From positions 6,912 through 47,413 of the forward strand of contig NZCA01000006.1 in assembly GCA_002688095.1 (NCBI GenBank): 40,502 nucleotides of DNA, read 5' to 3'. This stretch comes from Nanobdellota archaeon (GTDB taxonomy: Archaea; Nanobdellota; Nanobdellia; SCGC-AAA011-G17; ARS1403). The number at the start of each line of letters is the position of its first letter. Position 1 is the first letter of the stretch. Of this stretch, positions 4,825-29,416 are shown piece after piece. Below the pieces are notes generated by a model, which worked only from the letters and a program-made list of their open reading frames with translations, was not told where the DNA came from and ran no database searches. The position numbers and the translations under genes are program-made.

Positions 4825-5118
4825 ATGACAATACAATTAGGGGATAGAATCCAACTTAATAATTTTAATGGACTCGAACCTGGAGAATTAACTATCTTAA
4901 AAAAAGTAATCGGTAACAACGCCAATCATTTCCAGGATTTTACAAAATTACATTTGACCCTAAAAGAAGTTCATAAAACAGAAAAATCCCAAAAATACCA
5001 GATAGATGCCCAATTAGAGATAGCTGATAAGCATTATGAAGCCGAATCCACCAATTTCAACTTATTCTTCGCTATTAATGAAGTCATGGACAGATTAAAG
5101 TCCCAAATCAAAGAGTAA
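4825..5118 (+). CDS. HPF/RaiA-like ribosome-associated protein
   Basis: The 97-residue protein matches the layout of the S30EA/HPF fold: a beta strand (KLHLTLKEV), a second strand ending in QIDAQLEIADKHYEAES, then the helix FAINEVMDRLKSQI. In the family this compact domain binds the 30S decoding centre and silences ribosomes in starvation. The C-terminal dimerisation domain of long HPF is absent. It heads a ribosomal protein/RNA polymerase cluster, which fits. The similarity is in pattern rather than strict motifs, so the call is moderate. If right, it pairs interestingly with the RelA/SpoT homologue at 27.6-29.4 kb. Confidence 0.6.
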   Translation: MTIQLGDRIQLNNFNGLEPGELTILKKVIGNNANHFQDFTKLHLTLKEVHKTEKSQKYQIDAQLEIADKHYEAESTNFNLFFAINEVMDRLKSQIKE

Positions 5119-21518: not shown

Positions 21519-21655
21519 TTATTCATCAAAATCTTCCAACTCGAAGTCTTCCCACTTCCCTTCTTCCCCGTGTTTTATCTTAAAATCCCCTTCTTCCTTC
21601 TTTTCTTTTAAGTTTGTTTTTTCTTTCTTCTTCTCTTTTTTCTCTTTCTTTATTC
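21519..21655 (-). pseudogene. Out-of-frame C-terminal tail of the subtilase
   Basis: Directly beyond the subtilase stop (21650-21652), the minus-strand frame one base back is open for 44 codons. It continues the same Lys/Glu-rich coiled coil and ends in an ordered-looking acidic tail (GDFKIKHGEEGKWEDFELED then FDE, stop at 21519). It has no start codon of its own. The join sits in GAGAAAAGAATAA, an A-rich spot suited to a -1 slip or to loss of one base. Either a real frameshift mutation, programmed slippage or a sequencing error could explain it. Confidence 0.55.
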
Positions 21656-24600
21656 TTTTCTCTTCTCTCTTAATTTCTCTTCTCTTTCTTTTTCTTTCTC
21701 CCTTTCCCCCTCTTCCTTTGCTCTTTCTTCTCTTCTTCTTTCCTTCTCCAACTCTCTTTCTCTCTTAGCTTTTTCTTTTTCTTCCCTTTCTTTCTCTTTT
21801 TCTTCTTCTCTCTTCAATTTTTCCACTTCTTCCCTTTCTTTCTCTAATTCTTCTTTCTCTTTCTCTAACCTTTCCTTTTCCTTAGCAACTTTATCCTTAT
21901 GATGTCTCTTCAATTTACTTTTGACTAGCCTATCCTCTTCCCCCATTTTATCTTTAATTTTACCAACAAAACCAAAATTAATTTTCTTGAATGGAACAAA
22001 TATTTTATTTATATTTTTTATCTTACTTAAAAATCTAAATCTACTTCTATATCTATAACCTAAATAAATTAAAATTAAAAACACCAAAACTCCTGCTCCA
22101 ATCCAATAATACCTTTGATTTCCTTCTCTTTTGATTATACTTGTAGCCCTCCCAGTCAATCTATCCAACCAACTCTCATCCCCTTCACTTTCTGTTATTT
22201 CCGATTCTTCACTTTCTTCAATAGTTTCATTTTCAGCATTTGTAGTTTCAATAGTCCCCATACTAGTTAAATTTTTATCTGCGTTAATTGCAAAAAAACT
22301 AAAGCCCGGAGTTAAGGCTTCATAAAGTTGATAATCTCCATCCATTCCAGCAGTCAAGGTTTCTAATTCAACCCATTGCCCATTCACATATCTATTCAAA
22401 ACCACTTTAGTAGAATCCCCTAAGGCATTAATTGTAATCCAAGTTTGGGGTACTTTAAATTTAATTTTAGCTTCATCTAAATCCGCTTCTAATAAATTAG
22501 AATTTATCTTCAAATACCTATACACATTACTAACCGCACTCACACTATCTGGTTTGGATTCCTGTTTCTCCACTGTGATTTCCACACTATCCACTCCTCT
22601 CTTAAATTTAAATTCAAGTCCATTTACGCCTACATCCTTACTAATACTAAATTTCTTAACATCTCCAATAGCTGCACTAAATTTCAAAGTAGATTTATCT
22701 AAACTTGTAGTTACAGTATCTCCTCCCGAACTTCCAGTATCACCCCCATCGCCACTAGAACCACTATCATCATCCGGTGTACAAGTCTGGGATTCACTTG
22801 GTTTATCTGTATTAGTTCCACAACTATTAGAATCTGTACAAGTTCTTGTTCTGGTTCCACTGCTAGAACAACTGGTAGGATAATCTGTACAACTCCAACT
22901 TGGCTGACATACAGTCACATCCCAAATCCCGGAAGTATCGGTTTTACCTACCCTATCTAAACAAGTAACACTCCAATTATAATTCCCATTATCCAAATTA
23001 GTTGAGATGGTTTCCTGGGTATTCACACTCACAGAAGAATCTGTCTGATTCACAACTCCTCCAATAGTCAAATTACATTCACCTATAGCATAGTCACTTA
23101 CATTATAATTAAAGTTCACAGTGTTATCATAAACCGAAGTATTATTCAATGGAATAACCAAAGCCACAACAGGCTCACTTTTGTCTACATAGATTGTTTT
23201 ATTTTCACTATCTATACAATAATTATTCAAATCACATGCCTTTACACCCCAAAGATAAATCCCATTACTATCTGGAAAACTAACATTAAATTCCACACTA
23301 GTTTCGTTTATATTTCCACTCCAAGTTTCATTAGCTCCCCAACTACTATAATTATGATATAAAGTTACATTAGTTAGATTATATTTACTTCCCACAGTCA
23401 TATTAAAGATTACATCCGCATTTGAAGTATAGTTCGTATCATTTACAGGGGAATTAATTAAAGTTACAGTCGGAGGTCCAGTTATGTCCCTTACCAAAAA
23501 AGTCTTGCTAGTTAAATTCTCATTTCCACTTGTATCATTGGCCCAACCCCTTATAGTATAAACCCCTATATCTGTTAAATTCGTAGAAACCACACTTAAA
23601 TTAGTAATAAAATTACTCAACAAAGAACCATTTGGATAAATTACACTTCCATTATAACCTGTCAAAAAAGCATCATCATAACTTACACCAATAGTCAAAT
23701 TCTCCTGACCATACTCTACAGTTTCATTACTCAAAGTAAACTCCATACCCGGAACCCGACTATCATTTAAAGCTTCATAAACATTTATCCGACTAAAAGT
23801 CAAATTAGAAACAGAATCCAAGATAGTTTTTCCTGTCTCTTTTAATTCTTGAATAATTTGAGACACACTCGCGGTTTGGTTTGTATCATTATAATATTGT
23901 CTCAACAAAGCAACCGCTCCTGCCACATGCGGAGTTGACATAGAAGTTCCACTTCTTTCTTCATAACCCCCATTAAAAGCAGTAGAATTTATATCCGAAC
24001 CTGGAGCCATTAAACTCACTAAACCATTCCGATTACTATTAGTAGCTATAGTATCTGTTTGGGTGCTCCAACCAATTGCAGTTACATTAGCTATACAAGA
24101 TGGAGAAGAAATCCCTGTCACACTTCCATTATTCCCAGAAGCAGCCACAACCATAATTCCATTTCCTACCGCATTATTTATAGCAGTAGTAAAAGCTGAA
24201 GAATCCCCATCACATTCAGAAGTAAAAACATTATCCGTACCCAGACTCATACTTATAACTGAAATATTATACCTATCTTTTTTATTTACACACCAGTCAA
24301 TACCTGAAATAGCATCAGAGGAATAACCTCCTCCTTGATTATTTAAAACCTTAATAGCAATCAAAGAAGCATTTGGAGCGACTCCATTCACAATACCTGC
24401 CACATGAGTTCCATGACCCTGGTCATCCATAGGATCCTCATCTGTATTAACAAAATCATATCCCCCACTAACTTTACTACAAGTTCCATCACTAATATTC
24501 CCTGTAACACTACAACCTCCTAAATCTGTATGATTGTAAGCAATACCCGTATCTATTATACATACTCCTTGATCTCTTCCAGTTATATTTCCACTTCCAT

Positions 24601-25003
24601 AATTTAATTCTTGAACCACAGATGCATTAATTAAAGGAACTGAATCCTGTAAAAATAATCTTATAGGATAATCATACTCAATTTTCTCCACCCTTCCATC
24701 CTCAATTAAATCTCCTAATTCTTCAGAATTTACCTCACTCGAAAAACCTTTAACAGCACTAAATTCATTTTCTTTTTCAATGCCCAAATCTTCTACAACT
24801 TCTTGAACTTCAACTTCTTCACTAAAACTAAAAATCCCAATACCTTCATCTACTTCTTCTTTCAAAACCACAATAACTTTCACTTCTCCTTGATCTTCTA
24901 ATTCTTCCAGAACCTTATCGTCTACTTTTTCAGAATCTTCATTCGCATTAATAATTCCCAACAATAAAACAAATATCAAACCAAAAATTAAAACTTTCTT
25001 CAC
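21650..25003 (-). CDS. Membrane-anchored subtilisin-like serine protease (S8)
   Basis: About 1117 residues. Signal peptide (KKVLIFGLIFVLLLGIINA); I9-like propeptide (about 25-115). The S8 catalytic domain has Asp151 (IIDTGIA), His197 (QGHGTHVAG), Asn291 (AASGNNG) and Ser354 (GTSMSTPHVAG). Ig-like repeats rich in N-x-S/T sites follow, then a TSP1-like Cys segment (WSC...TRTRTC). Next are a Gly/Ser/Asp linker, a PGF-pre-PGF-type domain ending TPGFSFFAI, one membrane helix (about 963-985), and a long cytoplasmic Lys/Glu coiled coil. The start is GTG at 25003, not ATG at 25024: it overlaps the upstream stop as GTGA, with GAGGTGAG before it. It is probably a cell-surface protease or adhesion factor. 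It ends early relative to an open tail in another frame (21519-21655). Confidence 0.9.
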   Translation of the reverse strand: MKKVLIFGLIFVLLLGIINANEDSEKVDDKVLEELEDQGEVKVIVVLKEEVDEGIGIFSFSEEVEVQEVVEDLGIEKENEFSAVKGFSSEVNSEELGDLIEDGRVEKIEYDYPIRLFLQDSVPLINASVVQELNYGSGNITGRDQGVCIIDTGIAYNHTDLGGCSVTGNISDGTCSKVSGGYDFVNTDEDPMDDQGHGTHVAGIVNGVAPNASLIAIKVLNNQGGGYSSDAISGIDWCVNKKDRYNISVISMSLGTDNVFTSECDGDSSAFTTAINNAVGNGIMVVAASGNNGSVTGISSPSCIANVTAIGWSTQTDTIATNSNRNGLVSLMAPGSDINSTAFNGGYEERSGTSMSTPHVAGAVALLRQYYNDTNQTASVSQIIQELKETGKTILDSVSNLTFSRINVYEALNDSRVPGMEFTLSNETVEYGQENLTIGVSYDDAFLTGYNGSVIYPNGSLLSNFITNLSVVSTNLTDIGVYTIRGWANDTSGNENLTSKTFLVRDITGPPTVTLINSPVNDTNYTSNADVIFNMTVGSKYNLTNVTLYHNYSSWGANETWSGNINETSVEFNVSFPDSNGIYLWGVKACDLNNYCIDSENKTIYVDKSEPVVALVIPLNNTSVYDNTVNFNYNVSDYAIGECNLTIGGVVNQTDSSVSVNTQETISTNLDNGNYNWSVTCLDRVGKTDTSGIWDVTVCQPSWSCTDYPTSCSSSGTRTRTCTDSNSCGTNTDKPSESQTCTPDDDSGSSGDGGDTGSSGGDTVTTSLDKSTLKFSAAIGDVKKFSISKDVGVNGLEFKFKRGVDSVEITVEKQESKPDSVSAVSNVYRYLKINSNLLEADLDEAKIKFKVPQTWITINALGDSTKVVLNRYVNGQWVELETLTAGMDGDYQLYEALTPGFSFFAINADKNLTSMGTIETTNAENETIEESEESEITESEGDESWLDRLTGRATSIIKREGNQRYYWIGAGVLVFLILIYLGYRYRSRFRFLSKIKNINKIFVPFKKINFGFVGKIKDKMGEEDRLVKSKLKRHHKDKVAKEKERLEKEKEELEKEREEVEKLKREEEKEKEREEKEKAKRERELEKERRREERAKEEGEREKEKEREEKLREKRKE

Positions 25004-25275
25004 ACTCTCACCTCTTCCAAACAAGTTTTATAATCTTCATTTTCATTCCATTGACATTTATTATCCACACAACCACACAAAGTTAACTTTAAACATCCAT
25101 ATTCCTCCCTATATTCACAAGTGGTTATCAAATCTTTTGCCTTATCTATCGATGTACAAACTTGACTTGAACATCCCCCAATAGCACATTCACTATCTTT
25201 AGTACATTCAACCCTTTGTTGACTAACACAACCATTTAACAATACTAAAAATAATAGCATCCACCACTTGTCCAC
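25000..25275 (-). CDS. Cys-rich lipoprotein
   Basis: The 91-residue protein has a short N-terminus, a hydrophobic stretch and the lipobox LLNGC, then ten further cysteines in patterns such as ECTKDSECAIGGCSSQVC and LCGC. This resembles small eight-cysteine-cluster domains of secreted proteins. It should be lipid-anchored outside the cell. The start is GTG at 25275, directly after the Rpp30 stop, with GGTGG five bases before it; an ATG at 25260 is the alternative. It overlaps the subtilase start, so the two are coupled and may act together, for example as inhibitor or chaperone. That role is a guess. Confidence 0.75.
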   Translation of the reverse strand: MDKWWMLLFLVLLNGCVSQQRVECTKDSECAIGGCSSQVCTSIDKAKDLITTCEYREEYGCLKLTLCGCVDNKCQWNENEDYKTCLEEVRV

Positions 25276-26566: not shown

Positions 26567-27232
26567 TTAACTAATTGTGGTCCCATTAAACCTCTCATCC
26601 TTCAAAACTTTCTCTAAATTATCCACATCTTTCAAAATTGCAGTTTTAATCTTATGTCTGTTTATTATCCTAGCAGCTGATTGATCCAACACAAAATGCT
26701 GTCCAGCTTTAAACTTAATCTTATTCACTTTCTTCATAAATTCCTTAAAACTAATCTCAGAAATAAATTTAGCATTTTTAACTTTTCTAGGATCTGCACT
26801 ATATAATCCCCTAACATTAGTCATATTAATCAAATAATCTGCTTTCACATATCTAGCTATATTAGCTGCAGTTCCATCTGAAGTCATATCTGGATGATAA
26901 CCTAAAGCCCCACATACCACCAAATTTTTCTGCTTTAATAATCTTCCAATTTCGTTTAAAGAATTTGGAATCAAAAGATTGGCCCCTAAAAAATTACTTA
27001 CCAACATAGCATTTAATTTTGTAGTCTGGATCCCCACCAAAGATTTTATTTTCTCACCTTTATCTTTCAAACTGGAAATATACTGCCTAGCTAATGCTCC
27101 TCCGCCCGTAACTATAACAATCTTATATCTAGAAAATTTCTTAATCACTTTCTTTAATCTTTTTAAGAATTCTAAATCTACTTTATTAGGAATCACCAAA
27201 CTCCCACCTACAGATATCACCACTTTTTTCAT
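26567..27232 (-). CDS. pyrH: UMP kinase, archaeal type
   Basis: The 221-residue amino-acid-kinase-fold enzyme makes UDP from UMP. It begins KKVVISVGGSLVIP, has VTGGGALARQYI for phosphate binding, and the PDMTSDGTAANIARYVKAD and INMTNVRGLYSADPRK segments typical of archaeal PyrH. DUF357 precedes it by 3 bp, and uppS ends convergently right next to it. Confidence 0.94.
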   Translation of the reverse strand: MKKVVISVGGSLVIPNKVDLEFLKRLKKVIKKFSRYKIVIVTGGGALARQYISSLKDKGEKIKSLVGIQTTKLNAMLVSNFLGANLLIPNSLNEIGRLLKQKNLVVCGALGYHPDMTSDGTAANIARYVKADYLINMTNVRGLYSADPRKVKNAKFISEISFKEFMKKVNKIKFKAGQHFVLDQSAARIINRHKIKTAILKDVDNLEKVLKDERFNGTTIS

Positions 27233-27235
27233 TTT

Positions 27236-27526
27236 TTAATCTTGGGCAAATAATTTATTATCATGCACATCAAATATCCCCAATCTTGCTCCCGCATCCA
27301 AAAAACCATGAGCATAATTTAATGCCGCAAACGCATTTACTTCATCTCCTTTCCCTCTAAAATGCTTAGCATCTTCAATATATCTCTCCACTATATCCAC
27401 AAAGTCTTCTCTAGCTTTTTTTATAGCTTCTAAATTTACACTTTCCTTAGATTTCTTAGCCTTTTCTAAAGCATCACTAGCCAACTTAAAATATTTCTCT
27501 AATTTCTCTTCTTTTATCTCATTCAT
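27236..27526 (-). CDS. DUF357 family protein
   Basis: A 96-residue helical protein with the DUF357 end signature NAFAALNYAHGFLDAGARLGIFDV. Two long helices (KYFKLASDALEKAKK and DFVDIVERYIEDAKHF) form a hairpin resembling a tetratricopeptide-like unit. I use the ATG at 27526, where GGGAG is 5 bases upstream and a TATA-like box at 27547-27556 fits; a TTG at 27538 is less likely. The family function is unknown, and it is usually near nucleotide or RNA genes in archaea. Confidence 0.85.
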   Translation of the reverse strand: MNEIKEEKLEKYFKLASDALEKAKKSKESVNLEAIKKAREDFVDIVERYIEDAKHFRGKGDEVNAFAALNYAHGFLDAGARLGIFDVHDNKLFAQD

Positions 27527-27585
27527 ATTAACTCCCAATATAACATAGTATTTAACTTTTTTGATGAAACGCTTCTTAAAAGTTC

Positions 27586-29364
27586 CTATTCAATTCTGAT
27601 TTTTCTCACACCCTCTATATGATTCACCCTTTCAATCACTTTCTTCAATTCTTTTAATCCATTAAAATTAATATCCAAAGTACATTCTGCAATCTCATCA
27701 CTTGCATTCTTAGCCTGGGCAGTTTGAACACCAATCCCCATAGCCGCAACTGCATTTAAAATCTCAGCAAAAATACCCAGTCTTTCTTCTGCCAGTATTT
27801 TCAACTTAATTTTATTATTAAAATCCTCTATCCAAAAAGCTCCAATTTTATTTTTAACATCTTTAACATTTTTACAACTATAAGAGTGTACTACTGCGTT
27901 TTTAAAACTACTAACTACCCCGATTAAGTCTTCTTCGGGTAATGGATTACAACATTTGGCCATCCTTAAATCGTAATCCCCCTCTACCCCAATAAAAAAA
28001 TTCTCAATCACAACTTCTTCTTCCGCAAGCTTCCTACGTCCAGGCATTCCAGTAATGCTAAAATGCTGCCTAATTTTTTCAAATGCTTTCCTAGTTTTAA
28101 CAAAACTTAACCAATTCCTACTTGGCTTATGCAAAGTCGAAGTCAAAACTTCTACTTCATCCCCATTTTTTAATTTCTGTCTTAAACTTACAAACTTTCC
28201 ATTCAATCTTCCCCCTGTACATTTGTCTCCAATCTCACTATGTACAGCATAAGCAAAATCCACAATACTACTTCCTTCATTCAATTCTATGATTTTTCCT
28301 TTTGGAGTAAAACAGTAAATCTTATTTTCAAATAAATCTAATTTTAACTTATACAAAAATTCCTTATCACTTTCAGTTCCAAAATCTAAGATTCTCCTTA
28401 ACCAACTTAACTGCTTATTAAACTTCTTCTCCCCTTCAATTTTTTTATATCCCCAATGAGCTGCTACTCCCTCTTCGGCCATATCATTCATCCTTTTAGT
28501 CCTAATCTGAACCTCAACAGGAATTTGATTATAAAAAAAAGTAACGTGTAAACTTTGATAGATTCCTCCTTTAGGAGAAACAATAAAATCCTTTAATCTC
28601 TCTGGGATAGTATCCCACAAGGTATTCACAATCCCTAAAACCCTATAGCAATCCTCACTAGTCTCTACAATAATTCTTAATCCTAATAAATCATAAATCT
28701 CTTCAAATTTCTTACCCTTATCCACCATTTTTTTATGGATACTATAGAAATGCTTGGGTCTTCCAAAAATTTCATATTTGATCTTCTTCTTTTTAAGTTC
28801 TTTAATCAATTGTTCTTCTAATTCCCTAATAAATTTCTCTCTTTCCCCTCTCTTAATCTTAATTTTTCTTTTTAATTCAAAATATTTTTGAGTATTCAAA
28901 TATCTAAAGCTTAAATCTTCTAACTCCCATTTCAAATCACTCAATCCTAGTCTATAGGCTATAGGAGCATAAATTTCCATTGTGTCTCTGCTTATTCTTT
29001 TCCTTTCTAATTCACCCAAAATACTCAAACTCCTCATCTTATACAATCTTTCTAATAATTTAATTAGTAAAATTCTCAAATCTTCAATAGTCGCTATCAA
29101 CATCTTCCTAACCTTATCTGGTTTGTTCCCCTTTCCTGCCTTAGCAGCCAGCATATTGAATTTTTTTAAACCTCTTATAATCTTATTAACCTCAATCCCA
29201 AAGCCCTTCACATCAGAACTAAAATCATACAATAAAGTTGCAGAAATAGCTTTTTCATCCAAACCATAATTTTGCAAAAATTCACAATATTTTTTCTTAT
29301 TTTTGTTCTCCAAATTACCATAATTCTTTTTCACAAAATCCAAAGTTTTTCCCACTAATTCCAT
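27586..29364 (-). CDS. Long RelA/SpoT homologue, HD domain degenerate
   Basis: 592 residues with complete RSH architecture, in order. The pseudo-HD region covers residues about 20-140. The (p)ppGpp synthetase follows (about 190-310), with GRPKHFYSIHKKM, YDLLGLRIIV (Asp225), SPKGGIYQSLHVTF and VEVQIRT (Glu284). TGS covers about 349-410 (YCFTPKGKIIEL), then a conserved-Cys region (AKCCNPLPEEDLIGVVS) and a C-terminal ACT domain. The hydrolase residues are gone: the HD pair reads YD (46-47) and the LADRLHNM-like motif reads LLERLYKM. So it should make but not degrade the alarmone. Start is ATG at 29364, 26 bp after TTTTAAAA; an ATG at 29397 is upstream of that promoter. Full RSH proteins are rare in archaea; transfer from bacteria is likely. 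Confidence 0.93.
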   Translation of the reverse strand: MELVGKTLDFVKKNYGNLENKNKKKYCEFLQNYGLDEKAISATLLYDFSSDVKGFGIEVNKIIRGLKKFNMLAAKAGKGNKPDKVRKMLIATIEDLRILLIKLLERLYKMRSLSILGELERKRISRDTMEIYAPIAYRLGLSDLKWELEDLSFRYLNTQKYFELKRKIKIKRGEREKFIRELEEQLIKELKKKKIKYEIFGRPKHFYSIHKKMVDKGKKFEEIYDLLGLRIIVETSEDCYRVLGIVNTLWDTIPERLKDFIVSPKGGIYQSLHVTFFYNQIPVEVQIRTKRMNDMAEEGVAAHWGYKKIEGEKKFNKQLSWLRRILDFGTESDKEFLYKLKLDLFENKIYCFTPKGKIIELNEGSSIVDFAYAVHSEIGDKCTGGRLNGKFVSLRQKLKNGDEVEVLTSTLHKPSRNWLSFVKTRKAFEKIRQHFSITGMPGRRKLAEEEVVIENFFIGVEGDYDLRMAKCCNPLPEEDLIGVVSSFKNAVVHSYSCKNVKDVKNKIGAFWIEDFNNKIKLKILAEERLGIFAEILNAVAAMGIGVQTAQAKNASDEIAECTLDINFNGLKELKKVIERVNHIEGVRKIRIE

Positions 29365-29393: not shown

Positions 29394-29416
29394 GCATATT
29401 CTCTACAATCTATATC

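Follow-up and report, generated by a model that had tools for sequence, protein, structure and literature searches.

A long RSH with a degenerate hydrolase domain and a conserved synthetase domain in a Nanobdellota archaeon, and apparent recurrent hydrolase loss in its phylum

The window, a stretch of 40,502 nucleotides from a Nanobdellota archaeon, contains an uninterrupted open reading frame encoding a long RelA/SpoT homologue (RSH) (Table 1). The protein has 592 aa when counted from the ATG at 29364, and an alternative in-frame ATG upstream, at 29397, would give 603 aa. Pfam matches to RelA_SpoT (131 bits, cut-off 27), HD_4 (80 bits, cut-off 27.2, the HD being degenerate), TGS and ACT_4 were obtained, and the top match among solved structures was 6yxa, a GTP pyrophosphokinase (1e-113). 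The score against NCBIfam TIGR00691 (spoT_relA) was 494.7 bits, below the curated cut-off of 499.2. It was found that the protein has the features of a long RSH, namely a synthetase domain (SYN) with catalytic residues, an N-terminal HD domain, the TGS His, an ACT domain and a CCHC zinc finger. A full-length alpha-helical (AH/HEL) domain between TGS and the zinc-finger domain (ZFD), which is not strictly required for membership, was not found. The model that AlphaFold predicted from a four-row alignment, three rows of which were bacterial RelA, was poor (pLDDT 52.9, pTM 0.35).

Table 1. Positions of the RSH gene, its domains and motifs, and other genes of the window.
Feature	Position	Strand	Basis
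Long RSH (RelA/SpoT homologue), synthetase-only by residues, 592 aa	27586..29364	-	ORF, Pfam, NCBIfam, structure match
Degenerate HD (pseudo-hydrolase), residues 28-141, N-terminal part shortened	28942..29283	-	HD_4 2.1e-22, lost residues, HD/SYN divergence
YDFSSD replacing HDxxED, residues 46-51	29212..29229	-	Residue alignment
LLERLYKM replacing LADRLHNM, residues 103-110, D144->E, N148->K	29035..29058	-	Residue alignment
(p)ppGpp synthetase domain, residues 201-308, RLKD (RXKD-type) motif	28441..28764	-	Pfam RelA_SpoT 2.6e-38, residue table
TGS, residues 349-408, DFAYAVHSEIG, tRNA CCA-end sensing His375	28141..28320	-	Pfam TGS 1.3e-19, His conservation
Shortened alpha-helical (AH/HEL) linker, residues 409-468	27961..28140	-	~60-85 residues below bacterial Rel/RelA/SpoT
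Zinc finger (ZFD/RIS), C471 C472 H493 C497	27820..27969	-	CCHC pattern
ACT/RRM domain, residues 519-589	27598..27810	-	Pfam ACT_4 1.3e-9
DUF357 protein, next gene, syntenic with RSH across family f1	27236..27538	-	Pfam 8.3e-24
Amino-acid-kinase family, UMP-kinase-like by resemblance, syntenic with RSH in f1	26567..27232	-	Pfam 2.7e-31
Weak HPF/S30AE-like protein	4825..5118	+	PF02482 23.1 bits vs 23.7; yfiA 27.0 vs 40.9, both sub-threshold

The RSH is of a bacterial family and its best solved matches are bacterial, which might point to bacterial contamination or a mis-binned contig. Nevertheless, the genes flanking it on the same contig were archaeal (SRP RNA, L21e, Rpb4, an Rpb3-like polymerase subunit, SBDS and archaeal DnaG), its GC content and codon use agreed with those of the flanking genes, and its synteny was seen again in four further genomes. 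Contamination was refuted by these observations, and its probability was considered negligible. A scan of viral contigs gave no match, and a scan of genome contigs matched four RelA loci, all of them bacterial. Elsewhere in the window, a 1124-aa subtilisin-like protein with a PGF-pre-PGF domain is encoded at 21650-25024 on the minus strand, and its synteny is conserved in the family. A ThiF/E1-like gene lies divergently beside the RSH gene in f1, f3 and f5 (L138, L139, L140, L141, L142, L143); it is missing at 29398-29416 of the window, and there the RSH is adjoined by a TtuA-like gene for tRNA thiolation instead.

The hydrolase residues were mapped by alignment to E. coli SpoT and RelA (MG1655), and are given below as SpoT numbers followed by those of RelSeq (S. 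equisimilis Rel) in brackets. Six of the eight residues were gone from the window RSH: R39 [44] and H48 [53] were lost, the alpha2-alpha3 segment that bears them being shortened, and H72 [77], E76 [81], D139 [144] and N143 [148] were replaced by Y, S, E and K, respectively. D73 [78] and D77 [82] were retained. The alignment confirmed both replacements proposed in the earlier note, in which YD and LLERLYKM stand in for the HD and LADRLHNM motifs. The residue set of bifunctional Rel[HS] (R44, H53, H77, D78, E81, D82, D144, N148) was incomplete, and the protein had, by residues alone, the dead HD and live SYN of RelA[hS]. It was reported that the Mn2+ ligands of RelSeq are His53, His77 and Asp144, that guanine is bound by Arg44 and Asn148, and that R44Q and D78A each abolish hydrolysis (PMC13299517). 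On the basis of these ligands and mutant effects, loss of hydrolysis in the window RSH is a safe inference from its sequence.

The synthetase positions tested were all present in the window RSH (GRPKHFYSI, the D and R of YDLLGLR, RLKD, K, YQSLH and EVQIRT), and they were invariant or nearly so across hydrolase-intact and hydrolase-dead archaeal RSHs alike. The residue tables and the archaeal contig support the original description, namely that the window RSH is an archaeal long RSH with a dead hydrolase and an intact synthetase. The type of synthetase motif did not follow hydrolase loss here: the dead window clade carries RXKD, and the RelA-typical EXDD co-occurs with an intact hydrolase in L006-L015 and in further members of the window's order. 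A gammaproteobacterial RelA-type protein (L116:5845-8064) kept HDVVED and lacked the H53 position (ELYFQRS), an intermediate stage of hydrolase decay.

The earlier note had listed the synthetase, TGS, Cys-region and ACT domains as retained. All four were found, but the shortening of the AH/HEL linker had been overlooked. The spacing from the TGS His to the Cys-Cys pair was 95 aa in the window RSH and 91-108 aa in 117 of the 118 archaeal rows, the exception (72 aa) being a truncated ORF. In bacteria, the same spacing was 158-183 aa in E. coli SpoT and RelA and in 10 of 11 other measurable proteins; one divergent Streptomyces RSH was exceptional (115 aa). The archaeal linker was therefore ~60-85 residues shorter than the bacterial one, and the missing stretch corresponds to the AH/HEL domain. 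This domain is counted among the conserved domains of long RSHs (PMC13376610), and in E. coli RelA it spans aa 485-580, with its core packed near the D stem of the A/R-tRNA (PMC4974054). The short linker may result in weaker or different ribosome binding. The TGS His was present in 118/118 archaeal rows and the CCHC finger in 116/118. In E. coli, these two elements touch the tRNA end and the ribosome. We infer that the archaeal RSH senses the ribosome, with its linker trimmed.

Of the 279 genomes sampled from the phylum, 115 gave RSH matches, ~105 of them full or nearly full; by rank, they were present in 8/8 genomes of the window's family (f1) and in 52/103 of its order. No long RSH was found in archaea by Atkinson et al. 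2011 (PMC3153485). The presence of RSHs in DPANN archaea is already published, with RelA/SpoT given for 41.7% of Woesearchaeota, 21.3% of Pacearchaeota and 69% of Diapherotrites (PMC8407392), and our counts agree with that source. The rarity put forward in the earlier note, that of reports of (p)ppGpp signalling in archaea, was not supported as stated, long RSHs being common in this phylum. The window RSH most likely belongs to the same family as the proteins listed there (Woesearchaeota/Pacearchaeota-type, of predicted bacterial origin). The passages of PMC8407392 drawn on here list presence and do not describe loss of the hydrolase or of the linker; both the repeated loss of the hydrolase and the short linker seem to be new. 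It had also been suggested that the HPF-like protein of the window may be a downstream partner of the RSH. S30AE-type matches did not differ significantly in frequency between genomes with an RSH (26/105) and the others (30/174; p=0.16), the match of the window protein was sub-threshold, and nothing beyond proximity connected the two genes; the partnership was not supported.

A careful reduced maximum-likelihood tree was made with the HD columns left out. The archaeal RSHs, including the window RSH, formed one clade (100/99) against a limited bacterial sampling of nine sequences, and shared descent with beta/gamma-proteobacterial RelA was not found. The window proteins grouped by family, and the f1 locus was syntenic. 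The earlier note had proposed phylogeny to date the transfer. A recent transfer was rejected on the single archaeal clade seen with this limited bacterial sampling, the grouping by family and the f1 synteny.

With hydrolase-dead defined as the loss of at least two of six core residues, 60 of the 103 archaeal RSHs scored had an intact hydrolase and 39 a dead one, 2 were ambiguous and 2 truncated; the synthetase was conserved in all. Family f1 was divided, with four intact (G238, G279, G280, G281) and four dead members, one of them from the window genome (G000). The window's four dead proteins formed a clade (100/100) whose sister, L005, is an intact member of the same family (100/99). It was observed that the RSH gene order was common to the dead G000, G031, G149 and G181 and the intact G238, indicating that the hydrolase was lost in place. 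Further dead lineages were f24+f54+L020, f2, L018, L057 and L068. If loss is irreversible, the sequences suggest about six hydrolase losses; at least three are well supported, namely those of the window clade, of L068 and at least one for f24/f54. The number is uncertain, since seven state changes, one of them the RelA branch, were obtained when the tree held two bacterial rows, and four when it held long, divergent ones. In AU tests, a single clade of all dead proteins was rejected (p=9e-114), as was one clade of the window proteins and f24/f54 (p=0.009). Two partial cases, L173 and L175, had lost E81/D82 only.

Clade f24 comprised L030, L031, L033, L042, L045, L056, L058, L059, L061, L063-L066, L069, L071, L072, L078, L080, L083, L084, L086 and L088. 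In all 22 proteins R44, H53 and N148 were kept and D78/E81/D82/D144 were lost, and clade-specific residues N54, K112 and D147 were nearly fixed. The HD of f24 is possibly a nucleotide-sensing pseudo-hydrolase rather than a product of decay.

The HD/SYN divergence ratio was 1.66 in the window clade and 1.5-1.7 in dead clades, compared with ~1.1-1.3 (1.10-1.32) in intact clades, and SYN was the least or second-least divergent domain in most clades. In the dead same-genus pair L002/L004, pN was 0.248 for HD, 0.083 for SYN and 0.019 for TGS; dS was close to saturation in most pairs, and dN/dS values were taken as indicative only. The ratios and the pN values indicated that the dead HD is under weaker but remaining constraint, as would be expected for a regulatory remnant. 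In E. coli RelA, the inactive HD (pseudo-hydrolase) controls the synthetase (PMC8012599).

The degraded and N-terminally shortened HD, the shortened linker and the small genome might also reflect a decaying gene en route to loss in a shrinking genome. However, the reading frame was stop-free in 4/4 clade members, pN was low in SYN and TGS, the gene was present in 8/8 genomes of the family with conserved synteny, and the short linker was common to all archaeal rows, which indicates that it is not decay of the window copy. Decay was considered very improbable, and a pseudogene was rejected on the open frames, low pN, family-wide presence and synteny. Another alternative is a relaxed or non-signalling role, in which the RSH would produce hardly any alarmone, or none, or would form a different product, e.g. 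(p)ppApp, and would act mainly as a ribosome/tRNA-binding factor. Repeated hydrolase loss without evident replacement would be easiest with low alarmone output, and ~60% of the sampled genomes had no RSH, implying that the system is dispensable. Nevertheless, the conservation of the tested catalytic residues in all dead lineages and the low divergence of SYN indicated selection on catalysis, and a relaxed role seems unlikely.

In the window clade (G000, G031, G149, G181), no second HD_4 protein was found, and G000 gave no match to the general HD family PF01966. An extra HD_4 was likewise not found in 30/38 dead-RSH genomes, and Ppx/GppA was absent from the 13 genomes examined, window clade included. 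MAG incompleteness (G000, 606 kb, is 81% complete, and G031 97%) and unrecognised hydrolases are the main caveats to these absences. The claim that a synthetase-only enzyme needs another way to clear the alarmone was supported. In bacteria, a synthetase without a hydrolase is said to be prohibited, and SAS without SAH has already been noted in a few archaea and eukaryotes (PMC3153485); the present cases add long, ribosome-type RSHs, from many genomes, to this exception.

The hydrolase might instead have moved to another protein, so that its loss from the RSH was neutral. In the window clade the Nudix proteins were the sole clearance candidates seen, a ppGpp-degrading Nudix enzyme of Thermus thermophilus being cited in PMC3153485, and f1 genomes hold 2-5 Nudix proteins each (two in G000). 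But dead relatives (2-5) had no more than the intact G238 (four), no Nudix gene of the window clade lay beside the RSH, the genomes G010 and G092, in which the RSH is also dead, gave no Nudix match, and a Nudix gain tied to hydrolase loss was not seen. In f54, all four dead-RSH genomes of genus g142 had one stand-alone HD_4 protein of ~180 aa (L127-L130) retaining R-K, H, HD, E and LADRLDN, compared with 0/5 f54 genomes without RSH (p=0.008); this is perhaps one event in one genus, and the p value exaggerates independence. With most dead-RSH genomes having no extra HD_4, such a split system is conceivable and falls somewhat short of an even chance. In f54, a Nudix-like gene with a damaged box lies directly upstream of the dead RSH (L091:4715-5107, L094:4363-4755, L095:7409-7801, L099:4651-5043) and adjoins a conserved ~233-aa gene, tentatively exosome Csl4/Rrp4-like.

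Taken together, the window protein is probably a synthetase-only, ribosome-activated stringent factor of bacterial-type Rel descent, in which the dead HD regulates synthesis. An ancestral bacterial-type bifunctional Rel would have entered these archaea long ago; its hydrolase would have been lost in situ, before the f1 genera g1, g2 and g3 diverged from their common ancestor, with comparable losses on several further occasions across the phylum. Through its TGS His and zinc-finger/ACT region, the RSH most likely sits on the archaeal ribosome, where uncharged tRNA in the A site would engage TGS/ZFD/ACT and relieve inhibition by the pseudo-HD. This pseudo-HD would be a relic that persists, as its counterpart in E. 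coli RelA does, to serve as a regulatory scaffold. SYN would then transfer pyrophosphate from ATP to GTP/GDP to yield (p)ppGpp, and the alarmone might be removed by a non-HD enzyme (Nudix), by dilution, or be kept low by very low synthesis. Against this reading were counted the failure to detect (p)ppGpp in H. volcanii or S. acidocaldarius, both of which have no RSH (PMC8646023), the short AH linker, the incompleteness of G000, the poor AlphaFold model and the bacterial prohibition of a hydrolase-free synthetase. More tentatively, and with rather less than even confidence in the whole, several archaeal lineages may have such a ribosome-activated (p)ppGpp synthetase without an HD-type hydrolase, the archaeal stringent factor being a distinct short-linker long RSH with the HD as regulator and the f24 HD perhaps sensing nucleotide.

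The window RSH resembles RelA[hS] of beta/gamma-proteobacteria in its dead HD, its intact SYN, TGS, zinc finger and ACT, and its single-chain synthetase-only make-up. However, RelA works beside the SpoT hydrolase, whereas the window RSH has no HD-type partner; it also differs in RLKD (EFDD in the RelA sequences here), in the shortened AH/HEL linker, in its archaeal host and in the independence of the loss. With bifunctional Rel[HS] (B. subtilis Rel, 6yxa) it shares the architecture and the RXKD-type motif; it differs in the missing hydrolase residues and in the spacing of 95 aa compared with 176-183 aa in measured Rel proteins. Judged against G238 and the other archaeal RSHs with an intact hydrolase, Rel[HS] is the ancestral state of the window family, and f1 offers a natural before/after pair in G238 and the window. 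Alarmone signalling has been sought in few archaea and was not detected; the conservation of the synthetase and of the ribosome-sensing parts across a phylum-wide RSH family opens archaeal (p)ppGpp to direct testing, and recurrent hydrolase loss, mostly without HD-type replacement, challenges the bacterial rule that a synthetase needs a hydrolase.

The window protein, being a long RSH, differs from the small enzymes SAH (MESH1) and SAS, and neither of these was found in its clade. The stand-alone HD_4 protein of f54 resembles SAH, and SAS-like small synthetase-domain proteins were observed beside a long RSH in a few genomes (L104:5373-6068, L105:1029-1778, L106:1979-2740, L108:5311-6243, L110:4311-5153).
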